In this document: positions 3,131 through 55,367 of the stretch, piece after piece
How the letters are laid out: the number at the start of each line of letters is the position of its first letter
Numbering within the stretch: the first letter of the stretch is position 1
Assembly (NCBI GenBank): GCA_028277405.1
Contig: JANQGH010000050.1
Span: 62,001-126,000 of the forward strand
Length of the DNA stretch: 64,000 bases
Reading direction: 5' to 3'
DNA from: Alphaproteobacteria bacterium
GTDB taxonomy: Bacteria; Pseudomonadota; Alphaproteobacteria; DSM-16000; Inquilinaceae
Made by a program: the position numbers and the translations under genes
The notes under the pieces: generated by a model
What the model was told of the DNA's origin: nothing
Databases searched by the model: none
Seen by the model: the letters and a program-made list of their open reading frames with translations, nothing else

Positions 3131-3300
3131 CGCCGGTCCCCCGAGTCGTCAGCGATTCGGTCGTGAGCCTAGCGAGAGCGCCAGCCGAACCGCTGTATCT
3201 AGTCAACGGCCGACGATGATGCCACATCATCTAGGGGTGTACAGCTTTTAATGTGGTTTTTGCTGTGTTTTCCACAGTATGTTGTTTTTCCGACACAAAA
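3131..3300. promoter_or_regulatory. nrdJ upstream region with inverted repeat and DnaA-box-like sequence
   Basis: AT-richer stretch upstream of nrdJ. It contains a perfect 7-bp inverted repeat (GATGATG at 3215-3221, CATCATC at 3225-3231) and TTTTCCACA at 3268-3276, one mismatch from the DnaA-box consensus TTATNCACA. Ribonucleotide reductase promoters are often controlled by NrdR or DnaA; I found no convincing NrdR box. The regulatory role is inference. Confidence 0.3.
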
Positions 3301-49707: not shown

Positions 49708-50367
49708 CTATTCGGCTACGGCTTTGTTCGGTTCCAGGGCCGCGTCCAAATAGCTGTCGATGGTCTCGACCAGCGTGTCGATCTTGCCGTGAAAGAAGTG
49801 GTTGGCGGACTCAATGACCCGGTGATCGATCACGATGTCCTTCTGCAGCGACAGTTTGGCGACCAGCTTCTCGACCGATTCCGGCGTCACGATGTCGTCG
49901 TTGGCGCCATTGACGATCAGCCCGGATGACGGGCACGGCGCCAGAAAACTGAAGTCAAACATGTTTGCAGGCGGGGCGATCGACAGAAAGCCGTCGATCT
50001 CCGGCCGGCGCATCAGCAGCTGCATGCCGATCCAGGCACCGAAGCTGAAGCCACCGACCCAGCAGCCTGCGGCATTCGGGTTATAGGTCTGCAGCCAATC
50101 CAGCGCCGACGCCGCATCCGACAATTCCCCTTCGCCCCGATCGAACGCGCCCTGGCTGCGCCCGACCCCGCGGAAGTTAAACCGCATGGTCGAAAAGCCG
50201 CGGCGGGCGAAGGCCTGGAACAGGACATAGACGATCTTGTTGTTCATCGTGCCGCCATGTTCCGGATGGGGATGCAGCAACAGGGCGACGGGCGCGCCCG
50301 GCTTTTTGCCGTGCTGATAGCGGCCTTCGAGACGGCCGTCGGGGCCATTGAAAATGACTTCGGGCAT
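49708..50367 (-). CDS. Alpha/beta hydrolase
   Basis: A 219-residue protein of the alpha/beta-hydrolase fold. PVALLLHPHPEHGGTMNNKI provides the HP-rich oxyanion loop, CWVGGFSFGAWIGMQLL the nucleophile elbow (GFSFGA, Ser in the centre), LIVNGANDDIVTPE the acid, and ANHFFHGK the catalytic His. This short, cap-less type is common beside housekeeping genes and is usually annotated as a putative acyl hydrolase; the substrate is unknown. Confidence 0.9.
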   Translation of the reverse strand: MPEVIFNGPDGRLEGRYQHGKKPGAPVALLLHPHPEHGGTMNNKIVYVLFQAFARRGFSTMRFNFRGVGRSQGAFDRGEGELSDAASALDWLQTYNPNAAGCWVGGFSFGAWIGMQLLMRRPEIDGFLSIAPPANMFDFSFLAPCPSSGLIVNGANDDIVTPESVEKLVAKLSLQKDIVIDHRVIESANHFFHGKIDTLVETIDSYLDAALEPNKAVAE

Positions 50368-50490
50368 CGGCGTGTGTTCCCTCCGGGTTGCCGCTGTCGA
50401 GGCTGGCTAGGCTCGGCCCCGTCGGCATTCGGCATAAACCTCATCTGACTGGAGGGGCATTTTCTCAGGAAAAACGCCTGGCCAGCCAGA

Positions 50491-50522
50491 ATACTTGACC
50501 GCACTACCCGGATAATTATATT
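50491..50522 (+). promoter_or_regulatory. Promoter of the cysE-iscR-suf region overlapped by a degenerate IscR site
   Basis: TTGACC (50495-50500) and TATATT (50517-50522) are separated by 16 bases, a good sigma-70 promoter. The 25 bases at 50491-50515 match the E. coli Type 1 IscR consensus at about 17 positions by eye: the left arm ATACTTGAC is good, the right arm ACCCGGATA is weak. The overlap with the -35 element would allow autorepression. No gene is seen in the remaining bases before cysE. Confidence 0.5.
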
Positions 50523-50653
50523 CCGATTGTCGCTAGTACCGGAGATCCGGACCGTCGAGAGCGCACAGCGGGTTGGTCCGGCACCGGCACGCGTGACTTG
50601 AAGGACAAGACCGGGCCGCGCAGGTCGCGTGGTATATCATAGGGATAGCCCAT

Positions 50654-51394
50654 ATGTTCAAGCGCCTTCGCGAAGACATTGACACCATCATGGCGCGCGA
50701 CCCGGCTGCACGTTCCCGGATCACGGTGTTCTTCACCTATCCCGGCCTGCACGCCGTGATGTTTTATCGCCTGTCCCATCGGTTCGTGAACTGGAACATG
50801 CGCGGGTTCGCGCTGTGGCTGTCCTATGTCGGCCGCATCCTGACGGGCATCGAAATCCATCCCGGCGCCACGATCGGCCGGCGCTTCTTCGTCGATCACG
50901 GCACCGGGGTCGTCATCGGCGAGACGACGGAAATCGGCGACGACGTCACGCTTTATCAAGGCGTGACCTTGGGCGGTACGTCGTCGGACGGCGGCAAGCG
51001 CCATCCGACCTTGCTGGACGGCGTCATCGTCGGCGCCGGCGCCAAGATCCTGGGCCCCCATACGATCGGCAAGAACGCGCGGGTCGGCTCGAACGCCGTG
51101 GTGCTGAAGGATGTGCCGGAATGCGTCACCGTGGTCGGCGTGCCGGCGCGGCCGGCGGGCATGCCGAAGCAGCCCAAGCCCGAGTTCGTCGCTTACGGCA
51201 CGCCGACGGACGATCTGCCCGATCCGGTGGCGCGCGCGGTGCACGGATTGAACGCCGAACTGGCGACGCTGCGTCAGCGGATCGTCCAGTTGGAGGACGA
51301 ATTGGCCCACCACAGGGACGCGGCGCCGGACGGGCCGCTTGATGGCCGTGATGAGGAGGGTGCTGGAGAACAGCGCCGCGAAGGCCGGTGCTGA
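50654..51394 (+). CDS. cysE: Serine O-acetyltransferase
   Basis: Acetylates L-serine with acetyl-CoA, the committed step of cysteine synthesis. The 246-residue left-handed beta-helix protein has [32 protein letters not shown] and the hexapeptide series ending [18 protein letters not shown]-terminal coiled-coil-like tail ([20 protein letters not shown]) is added. Lying directly upstream of iscR, it links cysteine supply with cluster assembly, since cysteine is the sulfur donor. iscR follows after 39 bases. Confidence 0.95.
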
Positions 51395-51433
51395 CGATCG
51401 GCCCGAAGGTCGCGGGTAGGGGGAGATGAGTTC

Positions 51434-51937
51434 ATGAAGCTGAGCACGAAGGGTCGGTACGCGGTCATGGCGATGGTCGACATGGCGCAGCATGCGCAAG
51501 GACGGCCGGTGGCACTGGCCGACATCGCCGCGCGGCAGGAAATCTCGCTGTCCTACCTGGAGCAGCTTTTCGCCAAGCTGCGCCGATCGGGCCTGGTCAA
51601 AAGCGTGCGCGGCCCCGGCGGCGGATATCTGTTGACCCGGGGAACCGACGACACCCGCATTTCCGACGTCATCGTCGCCGTGGACGAGCCCATCCGGGCG
51701 ACCCGGTGTCCGTCCGGCTCGGGCGCTGGCTGCCGCAGCGACAAGAGCCGCTGCATGACCCATGATTTGTGGGAGGAGCTGGGCAACCAGATCCACCTCT
51801 ATCTCAGCTCCGTCAGCCTCGAAGATGTCATTCAGCGCCGTGTCCTTGGCACCAGCCGCGTGTTCGCCGGTCTTCAAGTCGAAGAACGTCGCCGGCCGCG
51901 GCCCGCCATCGCGCCCGGAACCGTAGCGGCCGAATAG
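51434..51937 (+). CDS. iscR: Rrf2 family regulator, IscR-type
   Basis: Fe-S-dependent transcriptional regulator of cluster assembly genes. The 167-residue protein has the winged helix at the N-terminus (MKLSTKGRYAVMAMVDMAQH; YLEQLFAKLRRSGLVKSVRG) and three cluster-ligand cysteines with the conserved His in TRCPSGSGAGCRSDKSRCMT. The cysteine spacing (7 and 6 intervening residues) is slightly wider than in E. coli. It presumably binds the sites at 53591-53615 and 50491-50515. GGGGAGATGAGTTC precedes the ATG. iscS follows after 30 bases. Confidence 0.95.
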   Translation: MKLSTKGRYAVMAMVDMAQHAQGRPVALADIAARQEISLSYLEQLFAKLRRSGLVKSVRGPGGGYLLTRGTDDTRISDVIVAVDEPIRATRCPSGSGAGCRSDKSRCMTHDLWEELGNQIHLYLSSVSLEDVIQRRVLGTSRVFAGLQVEERRRPRPAIAPGTVAAE

Positions 51938-51967
51938 CCGTTCAGACGGTTCTCAAGGGGGGTTTCC

Positions 51968-53080
51968 GTGTCGGCGTCGATCTATCTTGACTACAACGCC
52001 TCAGCGCCGCTGTTGCCCGCAGCGCGCGATGCGGTGGTGGCCGCGTTGGACGTGGTTGGCAATCCGTCGTCGGTGCACCGGTTCGGCCGCGACGCGCGGC
52101 GCCTGGTGGACCATGCCCGCCGACAGCTTGCCGCGCGTCTGGCGGTCGATCCGCAGCGCGTGATCTTCACCTCCGGCGCGACCGAGGCGAACGCGGCGGC
52201 GCTTAGTGGCGTTGATGTGACCAGGCGCCTGGTTAGCGCCATCGAACATGACAGTGTGCTGGCTGCCAACGCGGTCGAGACCTTTGCCGTCGATGGCAAA
52301 GGCGTCGCGGACCTCGCCAGCCTTGAGCGCGCGTTGGTCGAAGCGGATACGCCTACGCTGGTCTCCTTGCAGCTCGTGAACAACGAGACCGGGGTCGTTC
52401 AACCTGTTCAAGAGGCCGCTGCGCTGGCCCGTGACCATGGCGCGCTGATCCATTGCGACGCCGTGCAGGCGCTGGGGCGCTTGGCGTTTTCGCCCGACGC
52501 TCTTGGGGTCGATCTCCTGACGCTCTCCAGCCATAAGATCGGCGGACCGAAGGGTGCCGGTGCCCTGGTCGTGCGCGACGGCCTGCCGCTAAAGCCTCTC
52601 TTGAGGGGCGGCGGGCAGGAACGCCGGCGCCGCGCGGGCACGGAGAATGTCGCGGCGATCGCGGGTTTCGGGGCCGCTGTCGAGGCCGCTAACATCGACG
52701 CCTGGTCTCGGGCGACGGGCCTTCGAAACCGGCTGGAGACCCAGCTGGTCGCAGCGGACGCCGGTGCGGTGGTCTTCGGCGCCCACGCGGACCGTGTGGG
52801 CAATACGACATGCGTTGCCATGCCCGGTGTCGATGCCGAAACCCAGGTGATGGCCTTCGATCTTGCCGGCATTGCGGTCAGCGCGGGTTCCGCCTGCTCG
52901 TCCGGCAAGGTCGCATCCAGCCATGTCTTGGGCGCCATGGGCGTTCCCGATGCGCTGGCACGATGCGCCGTTCGGGTCAGCCTCTGCCCCGACACGATGG
53001 CAGCGGACATCGATCGGTTTGTGGCCGTGTGGGGTCAGATCGCGGTCAGGGGTCAACAGGGGCGAAGGGCGGTGGCATAG
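51968..53080 (+). CDS. Cysteine desulfurase, NifS/IscS-type
   Basis: PLP enzyme that takes sulfur from cysteine for Fe-S clusters and thionucleosides. The 370-residue protein has YLDYNASAPLLPAA at the N-terminus, TSGATEANAAAL, the PLP lysine in LLTLSSHKIGGPKGAGAL, GGGQERRRRAGTENV, and the sulfur-carrying Cys in SAGSACSSGKVASSHVL, typical of class I desulfurases. It is shorter than E. coli IscS (404), closer to NifS-like copies. GTG at 51968 has AAGGGGGG upstream. The window has a second desulfurase (SufS), so the two may serve different acceptors. Confidence 0.92.
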   Translation: MSASIYLDYNASAPLLPAARDAVVAALDVVGNPSSVHRFGRDARRLVDHARRQLAARLAVDPQRVIFTSGATEANAAALSGVDVTRRLVSAIEHDSVLAANAVETFAVDGKGVADLASLERALVEADTPTLVSLQLVNNETGVVQPVQEAAALARDHGALIHCDAVQALGRLAFSPDALGVDLLTLSSHKIGGPKGAGALVVRDGLPLKPLLRGGGQERRRRAGTENVAAIAGFGAAVEAANIDAWSRATGLRNRLETQLVAADAGAVVFGAHADRVGNTTCVAMPGVDAETQVMAFDLAGIAVSAGSACSSGKVASSHVLGAMGVPDALARCAVRVSLCPDTMAADIDRFVAVWGQIAVRGQQGRRAVA

Positions 53081-53184
53081 GCGAATGAACAAGAACCGGA
53101 AACAGCGCTGATTTCCGTCAGCATCTTGCGAAGGAATGGCCGCCTTGCGGCCCAACAACACGAACGAGGAACAGAAGCAGATCC

Positions 53185-53514
53185 ATGCCGATGATGGTTT
53201 TTATCGAACCCGATGGAACGAGGCGCGAGGTCGACGCCCCCAACGGTCTCTCCGTAATGGAGATTGCGCACTTGCATGACATCGACCTGGAGGGGGCGTG
53301 TGAAGGCTCGCTTGCTTGCTCCACCTGTCACGTCATCGTCGACAAGTCCTGGTTCGGCAAGCTGAAGCCGATCGAGGAGGATGAGGAGGACATGCTGGAC
53401 CTGGCGTTCGGCCTGGCCAAGACGTCGCGCTTGGGCTGTCAGATCATCATGTCGGACGAGCTGAACGGTCTCACTGTCCAGCTTCCCAGCGGCACCAACA
53501 ACATGATGATGTGA
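53185..53514 (+). CDS. fdx: 2Fe-2S ferredoxin, ISC/adrenodoxin type
   Basis: A 109-residue electron carrier for cluster assembly. The four cluster cysteines are in [16 protein letters not shown] (three) and RLGCQII (the fourth), with [17 protein letters not shown] typical of adrenodoxin-like rather than plant-like ferredoxins. It starts [19 protein letters not shown]. Its position between iscS and sufB fits a role as reductant for cluster assembly. 104 bases separate it from iscS. Confidence 0.93.
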
Positions 53515-53590
53515 ATACCCAGTAAACTAGTAGGGCTTTGAGAGTCAGATGCGATAGAATCGCGACAAATTAGGCTCTTGCCTGTTTGGA

Positions 53591-53615
53591 ATACCTGACT
53601 TAAATAGTCTGTTAT
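53591..53615 (+). promoter_or_regulatory. Type 1 IscR binding site in the sufB promoter
   Basis: The 25 bases match 22 of 25 positions of the E. coli Type 1 IscR consensus (ATASYYGACTRWWWYAGTCRRSTAT), counted by eye. Conserved halves are ATACCTGACT and TAGTCTGTTAT around AAA. Upstream, TTGCCT (53578-53583) and TAAATA (53601-53606) are spaced by 17 bases, a candidate promoter whose -10 lies in the site, so binding would repress. It lies 26 bases before the sufB ATG. Confidence 0.7.
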
Positions 53616-53640
53616 AGATCCCGAAGGGTTGGAGAACACG

Positions 53641-55098
53641 ATGGCAGCGGTAACCGAGACGATCCGGCAGGTCGAACAGGTCACGACTGATCGTTACAAA
53701 TACGGCTTCGTCACGGATATTGAGCAGGAAACCGCGCCGAAGGGGCTGTCGGAAGACATCATCCGCTTCATTTCGGCCAAGAAGGAAGAGCCGGAGTGGA
53801 TGCTGGAATGGCGCCTCGAAGCCTTCCGCGTTTGGCAGACCATGAAGTCACCGGACTGGGCGAAGCTGAAGTTCCCGCCAATCGACTATCAGGACGCCTA
53901 CTACTACGCCGCGCCGAAAAAGAAGCCGCAGCTCAACAGCCTCGACGAGGTCGATCCGGAGCTGCTGGCGACTTACAACAAGCTGGGCATCCCGCTGGAC
54001 GAGCAGAAGATCCTGGCCGGCGTGGTCGCCGTCGACGCGGTGTTCGACAGCGTCTCGGTCGCCACCACCTTCAAGGAAAAGCTGGCCGAGGCCGGGGTGA
54101 TCTTCTGCCCGATCTCCGAGGCCATCCGCAACCATCCGGACCTGGTGCGCAAATATCTCAGTTCCGTCGTGCCGGTCGGCGACAACTATTTCGCGGCGTT
54201 GAATTCCGCCGTGTTCACCGACGGTTCGTTCGTCTATGTGCCGCCAGGCGTTCGCTGCCCGATGGAGCTGTCGACCTATTTCCGCATCAACGCCCAGAAC
54301 ACCGGCCAGTTCGAACGCACCCTGATCATCGCCGACAAGGGCTCTTACGTCTCGTACCTGGAAGGCTGCACCGCGCCCCAGAGGGACGAGAACCAGCTGC
54401 ACGCCGCGGTGGTCGAGCTGGTCGCCCATGACGATGCGGAGATCAAATACTCCACCGTGCAGAACTGGTATCCCGGCGACGAGGACGGCAAGGGCGGCAT
54501 CTACAACTTCGTCACCAAGCGGGCGGCGTGCCGAGGCGACCGCTCCAAGGTGAGCTGGACCCAGGTCGAAACCGGCTCGGCCATCACTTGGAAGTATCCG
54601 AGCTGCATCCTGCAGGGCGACCATTCGGTGGGCGAGTTCTACTCCGTCGCCATCACCAACAATCATCAGCAGGCCGATACCGGCACCAAGATGATCCATC
54701 TCGGCCGCAATACCACCAGCCGGATCATCTCCAAGGGCATTTCGGCGGGCCTGTCCGACAACACCTATCGCGGCCTCGTGCGCATTCAGGGCAAGGCGGA
54801 AAACGCCCGCAACTATACCCAGTGCGACAGCCTGTTGGTCGGCGATCGCTGTGGCGCCCACACGGTGCCCTACATCGAGATGAAGAACCCGACCGCGCAG
54901 GTGGAGCATGAGGCGACCACCTCGAAGGTCAGCGAGGACCAGCTCTTCTACTGCCGCCAGCGCGGCATCGGCGAGGAAGAGGCGCTGGGTCTGATCGTCA
55001 ACGGCTTCTGCAAGGAAGTGCTTCAGGTCCTGCCGATGGAATTCGCCGTCGAGGCCCAGAAGCTGGTGGCCATCAGCCTGGAGGGCAGCGTCGGCTGA
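53641..55098 (+). CDS. sufB: Fe-S cluster assembly scaffold SufB
   Basis: Scaffold subunit of SufBC2D on which clusters are built from SufS-derived sulfur. The 485-residue beta-helical protein has [20 protein letters not shown] at the N-terminus, [17 protein letters not shown] in the core, [19 protein letters not shown], and a C-terminal region with [20 protein letters not shown]-like (read: [20 protein letters not shown]) carrying cluster cysteines. GGAG lies before the ATG at 53641. Transcribed from its own IscR-controlled promoter and followed at once by the 89-residue membrane gene. Confidence 0.96.
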
Positions 55099-55367
55099 TG
55101 TCCGCCCGGTCCGATATCGCAGGGCGCGCGATCTGGTTCGCGCGCCGGCCTTCCGGGCGCGGCATCAGGCCGGTCAGTTGGCAGGGCTGGGCGACGGTCA
55201 TTGCCTATCTCGCCGCCCTTCTGGCCGCGGCGGTGGCCATGCCGAAGCCGAATGCGCTGGAACCGATGGCGTTTGCCACGCCGCTGATCGCGATCCTTGC
55301 CGTGATGGGGCTCGCGACACTCCTGTTTGTCCTGTTGGTCCGCCGCCGCACGGCGGCCGACGATTGA
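55098..55367 (+). CDS. Uncharacterised small membrane protein between sufB and sufC
   Basis: An 89-residue protein. The N-terminal segment RAIWFARRPSGRGIRPVSWQ is basic and precedes two hydrophobic helices: WATVIAYLAALLAAAVAMP and FATPLIAILAVMGLATLLFV, with a basic end (RRRTAADD). I do not recognise a named family. Its ATG overlaps the sufB stop (TGATG), showing translational coupling; sufC follows after 33 bases. The membrane character is unusual for this otherwise cytosolic machine. A role in anchoring is possible but unproven; it may be a passenger. Confidence 0.75.
   Translation: MSARSDIAGRAIWFARRPSGRGIRPVSWQGWATVIAYLAALLAAAVAMPKPNALEPMAFATPLIAILAVMGLATLLFVLLVRRRTAADD

Follow-up and report, generated by a model that had tools for sequence, protein, structure and literature searches.

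A predicted IscR operator over the promoter of a cysE-headed iron-sulfur assembly cluster in an alphaproteobacterium of the Inquilinaceae

In Pseudomonas aeruginosa, the start of iscR, the gene for the iron-sulfur (Fe-S) regulator IscR, was mapped by primer extension to 29 nucleotides (nt) before the gene, and one of two type-1 sites present there, A and B, lies over the putative -35 hexamer TTGACC of this promoter (site B) (PMC3899308). Plasmid-borne iscR gave 16.9-fold repression in complementation, and this was lost in the C92A and H107A variants (PMC3899308). Caulobacter IscR likewise occupies the -35 of the isc-suf promoter that drives its own gene and acts as a repressor when iron is high (PMC11475020). 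A link between cysE, the gene for serine O-acetyltransferase, and IscR has already been considered in enterics, since PMC8262890 searched the DNA ahead of Yersinia cysE for type I motifs. For Azospirillum cysE-1, the portion of PMC12811640 that we drew on notes only "a Transcriptional regulator" downstream. Here we examine a 64,000-nt stretch of DNA (the window; contig JANQGH010000050.1, positions 62,001 to 126,000) from an alphaproteobacterium of the family Inquilinaceae, in which a predicted IscR operator lies over the promoter before cysE, the gene that precedes iscR and the Fe-S assembly genes.

We consider it highly probable, on the sequence comparisons that follow, that this element serves as both operator and promoter for an autoregulated Fe-S assembly operon headed by cysE. 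The predicted switch is of an ordinary, known kind; its distinctive feature is a serine acetyltransferase as the first gene under predicted IscR control. Among titles and abstracts we found no description of cysE as the first gene of an alphaproteobacterial IscR-controlled operon, in a search that was incomplete for regulon surveys, so that one may be in print.

Conservation of the putative operator-promoter

We compared the regions that separate the divergent hydrolase gene from the leading gene of the cluster in 15 genomes of the same family and on 79 of 80 named contigs; the remaining one (L052) was excluded because its bounding neighbor gene was not located. These 94 relatives' regions, with this genome left out, served to build a position matrix, which was seeded with the Escherichia coli type-1 IscR consensus ATASYYGACTRWWWYAGTCRRSTAT, a 25-bp imperfect palindrome, as quoted in PMC3899308. 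The operator site was present in 91 of the 94 regions (consensus, AATACTTGACCnnnnTAGTCGGGnATC), and the loci include Azospirillum, Magnetospirillum, and Thalassospira. The three loci without it (L115, L118, and L127) are counted as misses here and among the cysE-bearing loci below and stand outside the column counts. Sites were distinct in 85 of the 91 relatives. It is important to note that the loci counts are not independent, as they contain near-identical congeners, including 6 Azospirillum, 5 Thalassospira (by title), and 5 members of one genus (g2) of the family. A class-wide search for IscR in 385 genomes yielded 25 new loci, and after 6 repeats of earlier loci were dropped, all 19 held-out loci, which lie outside the matrix training, carried a site of at least 15 bits.

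The copy in this genome matches the E. coli consensus at 18 of 25 positions and P. aeruginosa site B at 20 of 25. Dinucleotide shuffles of the same intergenic region had a mean best score of 15.25 against the consensus, and none of 100 reached 18. With the lineage matrix, the cysE site ranked first in the window at 25.7 bits, followed by a site before sufB at 19.3 bits, while the maximum over 40 Markov-simulated 64-kb windows was 17.0; this matrix was trained on sites that double as a -35 box and so favors the cysE site. A profile of 46 of the 84 distinct 27-mers listed, hand-picked for spread, returned the cysE site alone from the 6.2-Mb genome at an E value of ≤10 (E, 0.66; 13.8 bits; among 150 of 1743 first-look candidates scored).

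Information in the alignment averaged 1.08 bits per column over the 25-mer and 0.77 over the next nine columns, which hold the -10, and fell to 0.08 in the flanks. Spacer positions 18 (2.08 bits), 20 (1.11), and 21 (1.56) were among the best conserved. These three positions are not needed by sigma-70. Because information thus covers the 25-mer and the -10, including spacer positions that sigma-70 does not need, we read the conserved block as an operator fused to a promoter. The operator holds the -35 hexamer and fills the spacer, overlapping the elements recognized by RNA polymerase.

The initial annotation had ranked TTGACC-16-TATATT among the best sigma-70 promoters of the window, and in fact no other sigma-70-like site in the 64 kb, whichever the strand, reaches 10 of 12 matches. 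Consensus counting by itself did not exceed chance (one site seen versus 1.5 expected in shuffles, with 11 kb scanned), and the promoter is credible because it is conserved, not by its score alone. Downstream of it we also observed a short conserved element, TA[N]CAY (here TATATCATAGGGATA, window about 50631-50653), which 37 of 64 loci carry no more than 45 nt from the cysE start, compared with 3.7 expected from shuffles; no -35 matching this element was seen.

The block might be nothing more than a conserved strong sigma-70 promoter, with its likeness to an IscR site arising only from TTGACC and the spacer, and with cysE expressed constitutively. Most of the left half-site, the best-conserved part, is the -35 box, and the right half-site is damaged in this genome, where no more than 3 of 12 palindromic pairs survive; all of this would suit such a promoter. 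Nevertheless, relatives conserve spacer positions 18, 20, and 21 together with the outer A/T, for which sigma-70 has no need, in the 25-bp type-1 spacing, and the site fits the P. aeruginosa operator that is required for IscR control of that promoter region (PMC3899308). We therefore regard an unregulated promoter as unlikely.

Several findings weigh against an IscR operator at this locus. The E value of 0.66 is all that the cysE site attains by itself genome-wide. Intact half-sites of a type-1 operator follow YYGAC and GTCRR; the left one is intact here and the right one reads CCCGG: position 18, which mirrors position 8 of the operator (A in 91/91 relatives), is T in 89 of the 91 relatives and in all 19 held-out loci, but C in this genome and in none of the 91 relatives. 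This C breaks the right half-site, and this copy might bind poorly or not at all. Further, 3 of the 66 relatives with cysE (L115, L118, and L127) have no recognizable site, and the IscR protein scores 191.3 bits against its best family, TIGR02010, under the curated cutoff of 207.55. A natural guess is that the C at position 18 would weaken IscR binding. The site had initially been described as degenerate, which is correct for the right half-site but not for the whole, as the site is otherwise a full member of the lineage with one unusual base.

Operator position and the first gene of the cluster

The operator sits before whichever gene leads the cluster. In 64 of 67 cysE-bearing loci, a count that takes in the present one, a site of at least 15 bits lies upstream of cysE; none of the 67 has such a match in the 250 nt before iscR, where the best score in this genome is -17.9 bits. 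An IscR-type promoter just before iscR was thus rejected for cysE-bearing loci. At loci without cysE, the site stands before iscR instead, with at least 15 bits in 27 of 28 and 11.2 bits in the remaining one (L091). Wherever cysE is present it heads the cluster, and it is the leading gene that the operator accompanies. The gap between cysE and iscR here is 39 nt and holds no same-strand terminator-like site. Thus, there is very probably an IscR-autorepressed cysE-iscR-iscS-fdx-(suf) operon here, headed by cysE. The initial annotation had predicted that cysE is co-regulated with iscR and the desulfurases and had proposed comparing cysE-iscR promoters in relatives; by that comparison the prediction is well supported.

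An arrangement in which cysE and iscR have separate promoters, with the main iscR promoter at the 3' end of cysE, has a precedent in P. aeruginosa, where the isc operon is immediately preceded by cysE (PA3816) (PMC13256707), yet the iscR start was mapped separately (PMC3899308). In the loci examined here, the absence of any operator of at least 15 bits from the 250 nt before iscR (67/67) speaks against this, as does the fact that the window offers no further sigma-70 site scoring 10 of 12 or better, although a weak unregulated start is possible. We judge separate promoters to be very unlikely and return to the single cysE-headed operon in what follows.

In five genomes of one sister genus (L043-L047), a short stretch resembling the start of cysE (VFKRLRDD and variants) sits between the promoter and iscR. 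This remnant suggests that cysE was lost from the operon in these genomes, which carry a more distant cysE elsewhere. Eight family genomes without a detected operon cysE have a 42 to 48% identical cysE elsewhere; one of the eight (G004) showed no iscR cluster at all. Of nine family genomes with the operon cysE, our own included, eight have a single copy at an E value of ≤1e-20 and one (G011) has two. In this genome, the operon cysE is the sole TIGR01172 match over the cutoff (next match, 50 bits versus a cutoff of 210.65) and no other clear serine acetyltransferase was found; with the assembly 97.7% complete, a small chance of a second copy remains. As for the genes farther downstream, in many of the named relatives (L048-L127) sufB was not detected over the 4.5 kb examined after iscR, so that one kind of cysE-iscR promoter may be shared by different sets of assembly genes.

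Genes of the locus, the second site, and a proposed switch

Coordinates of the features are collected in Table 1. The iscR product keeps the cluster ligands Cys92, Cys100, Cys107, and His110 as well as Glu43, all invariant in 11 of 11 aligned sequences, and solved IscR structures match it at about 1e-36. The roles of the cluster ligands and of E43 in cluster binding and type-1 discrimination are described in PMC3899308. Because these ligands and the gene neighborhood fit, we take the protein to be IscR despite its sub-cutoff score. That the operator instead serves another Rrf2-type iron or sulfur regulator (RirA-like or CymR-like) or a different protein is highly improbable: Rrf2 proteins do bind related inverted repeats and three more weak Rrf2-like matches occur in the genome, but these remaining proteins are only 25 to 32% identical to IscR, and the 25-bp type-1 spacing, the adjacency of iscR in all loci used, and the match to the P. 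aeruginosa IscR site all favor IscR.

Table 1 Predicted features of the cysE-iscR-suf locus (positions in the 64-kb window)
Feature	Position	Strand	Remarks
Divergent alpha/beta-hydrolase-like gene	49708..50367	-	Bounds the intergenic region; kept in 15/15 family and 79/80 named loci
Predicted 25-bp IscR type-1-like operator, ATACTTGACCGCACTACCCGGATAA	50491..50515	+	C at position 18, right half-site
Putative -35 hexamer, TTGACC	50495..50500	+	Inside left half-site of operator; TTGA (nearly) invariant in 91 relatives
Putative -10 hexamer, TATATT	50517..50522	+	Spacer 16; -10 block after operator kept in relatives
cysE, serine O-acetyltransferase	50654..51394	+	TIGR01172, 240 bits, above cutoff
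iscR, Fe-S regulator, Rrf2 superfamily	51434..51937	+	Best family TIGR02010
IscS/NifS-like cysteine desulfurase	51968..53080	+	TIGR03402, 320 bits, below cutoff; conserved beside iscR
isc-type 2Fe-2S ferredoxin (fdx)	53185..53514	+	TIGR02007, E 2.7e-25, below cutoff
Second type-1-like IscR site, ATACCTGACTTAAATAGTCTGTTAT	53591..53615	+	22/25 to E. coli consensus
sufB	53641..55098	+	NF008773, 930 bits, above cutoff

A known RNA leader was rejected as a feature of the region: Rfam at an E value of ≤1 gave one match in 50300-53700, at the iscR-iscS junction, with 19 bits versus a gathering threshold of 50. Between sufB and sufC (window 55098-55367) lies an 89-amino-acid open reading frame with no NCBIfam match.

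The site before sufB is the sole match in the genome to the E. coli pattern at up to three mismatches (control, 0). The initial annotation had placed the cysE -35 inside a weaker copy of the motif found before sufB; the two sites are identical at 15 of 25 positions. The yardsticks disagree on which is better: the E. coli consensus favors the sufB site (22 versus 18 of 25), which also keeps 8 of 12 palindromic pairs compared with the 3 of the cysE site, and the lineage matrix favors the cysE site (25.7 versus 19.3 bits). A different affinity of IscR at the two promoters is plausible. As to a wider regulon, the lineage profile gave the cysE site alone and the E. coli pattern, at up to three mismatches, the sufB site alone, in searches that did not extend to weaker and type-2 sites.

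Across 13 fdx-sufB gaps of the family, we counted 14 perfect YYGAS-N7-STCRR repeats compared with 0.23 expected, and 32 at 9 of 10 or better compared with 5.0 expected; these counts include overlapping registers, and five of the 13 gaps come from one genus. The copy in this genome scores 9 of 10. Owing to this enrichment, an IscR input before sufB is probably a family trait. Outside the family, the sufB gaps examined held no comparably clear site. IscR-like inverted repeats were seen in the fdx-sufB gap here (window 53515-53640) and in those of L033, L036, L038, L039, L041, and L043-L047. Some of the repeats in these gaps could be hairpins.

We infer IscR binding, repression, co-transcription, and an iron response at the cysE operon from these sequence features, and the proposed switch would work as follows. 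When clusters are plentiful, [2Fe-2S]-IscR would occupy the 25-bp type-1 operator and block RNA polymerase, because the -35 hexamer lies within the operator, which also takes up the spacer. When iron or clusters are scarce, IscR would lack its cluster and leave the operator, and its release would allow joint transcription of cysE-iscR-iscS-fdx. Since these genes would be transcribed together, the acetyltransferase behind the supply of cysteine, which donates the sulfur, would rise together with the desulfurase that consumes this cysteine, and the second type-1-like site would give the suf half an IscR input of its own. Sulfur supply and cluster building are likely to run together in this way. 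A bolder version, which we think doubtful, is that the only serine acetyltransferase of the cell in this lineage, and with it the opening step of cysteine synthesis, is slaved to Fe-S status through IscR and not to a cysteine sensor, and that in this genome the C at position 18 loosens the lock on cysE while the near-consensus site holds suf tight, giving two thresholds at which cysteine and sulfur release come first and SUF assembly second. If the switch proposed for the cysE operon is real, cysteine supply would be tied to Fe-S demand across a broad alphaproteobacterial group, which would connect sulfur assimilation directly with Fe-S homeostasis. The operator profile, together with the first-gene rule, should also help to locate the promoter of the operon in relatives.

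Comparison with described systems

In E. coli K-12 (L171), the best type-1-like 25-mer in 5 kb around cysE (20/25, at 3223-3247) lies inside gpsA, upstream of cysE.

The promoter examined here is most readily compared with that of P. aeruginosa iscR, where a 25-bp type-1 site also lies over a TTGACC -35 and holo-IscR represses (PMC3899308). The two differ in gene order, as the P. aeruginosa operator stands directly before iscR with cysE upstream of the operator, whereas here cysE is downstream of it and the predicted operon runs on into suf genes instead of isc genes. Caulobacter crescentus shares the joint placement of isc and suf genes, in a single operon there, with IscR binding across the -35 of the operon promoter and repressing in response to iron; iscR leads that operon, and cysE is outside it as described in PMC11475020. 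In the isc-suf operon of Rhodobacter sphaeroides, IscR is likewise a cluster-dependent repressor and there is an extra promoter before sufB, but that IscR is a single-cysteine protein that binds a 19-bp Iron-Rhodo-box, and the sufB promoter is described as iscR independent (PMC4618611). The nearest parallel for the acetyltransferase is the nif-linked CysE1 (NifP), which stands alongside a cysteine desulfurase system and was proposed to raise cysteine for cluster assembly, although in a nitrogenase system and not in an IscR-controlled housekeeping operon such as the one predicted here (PMC6006210).
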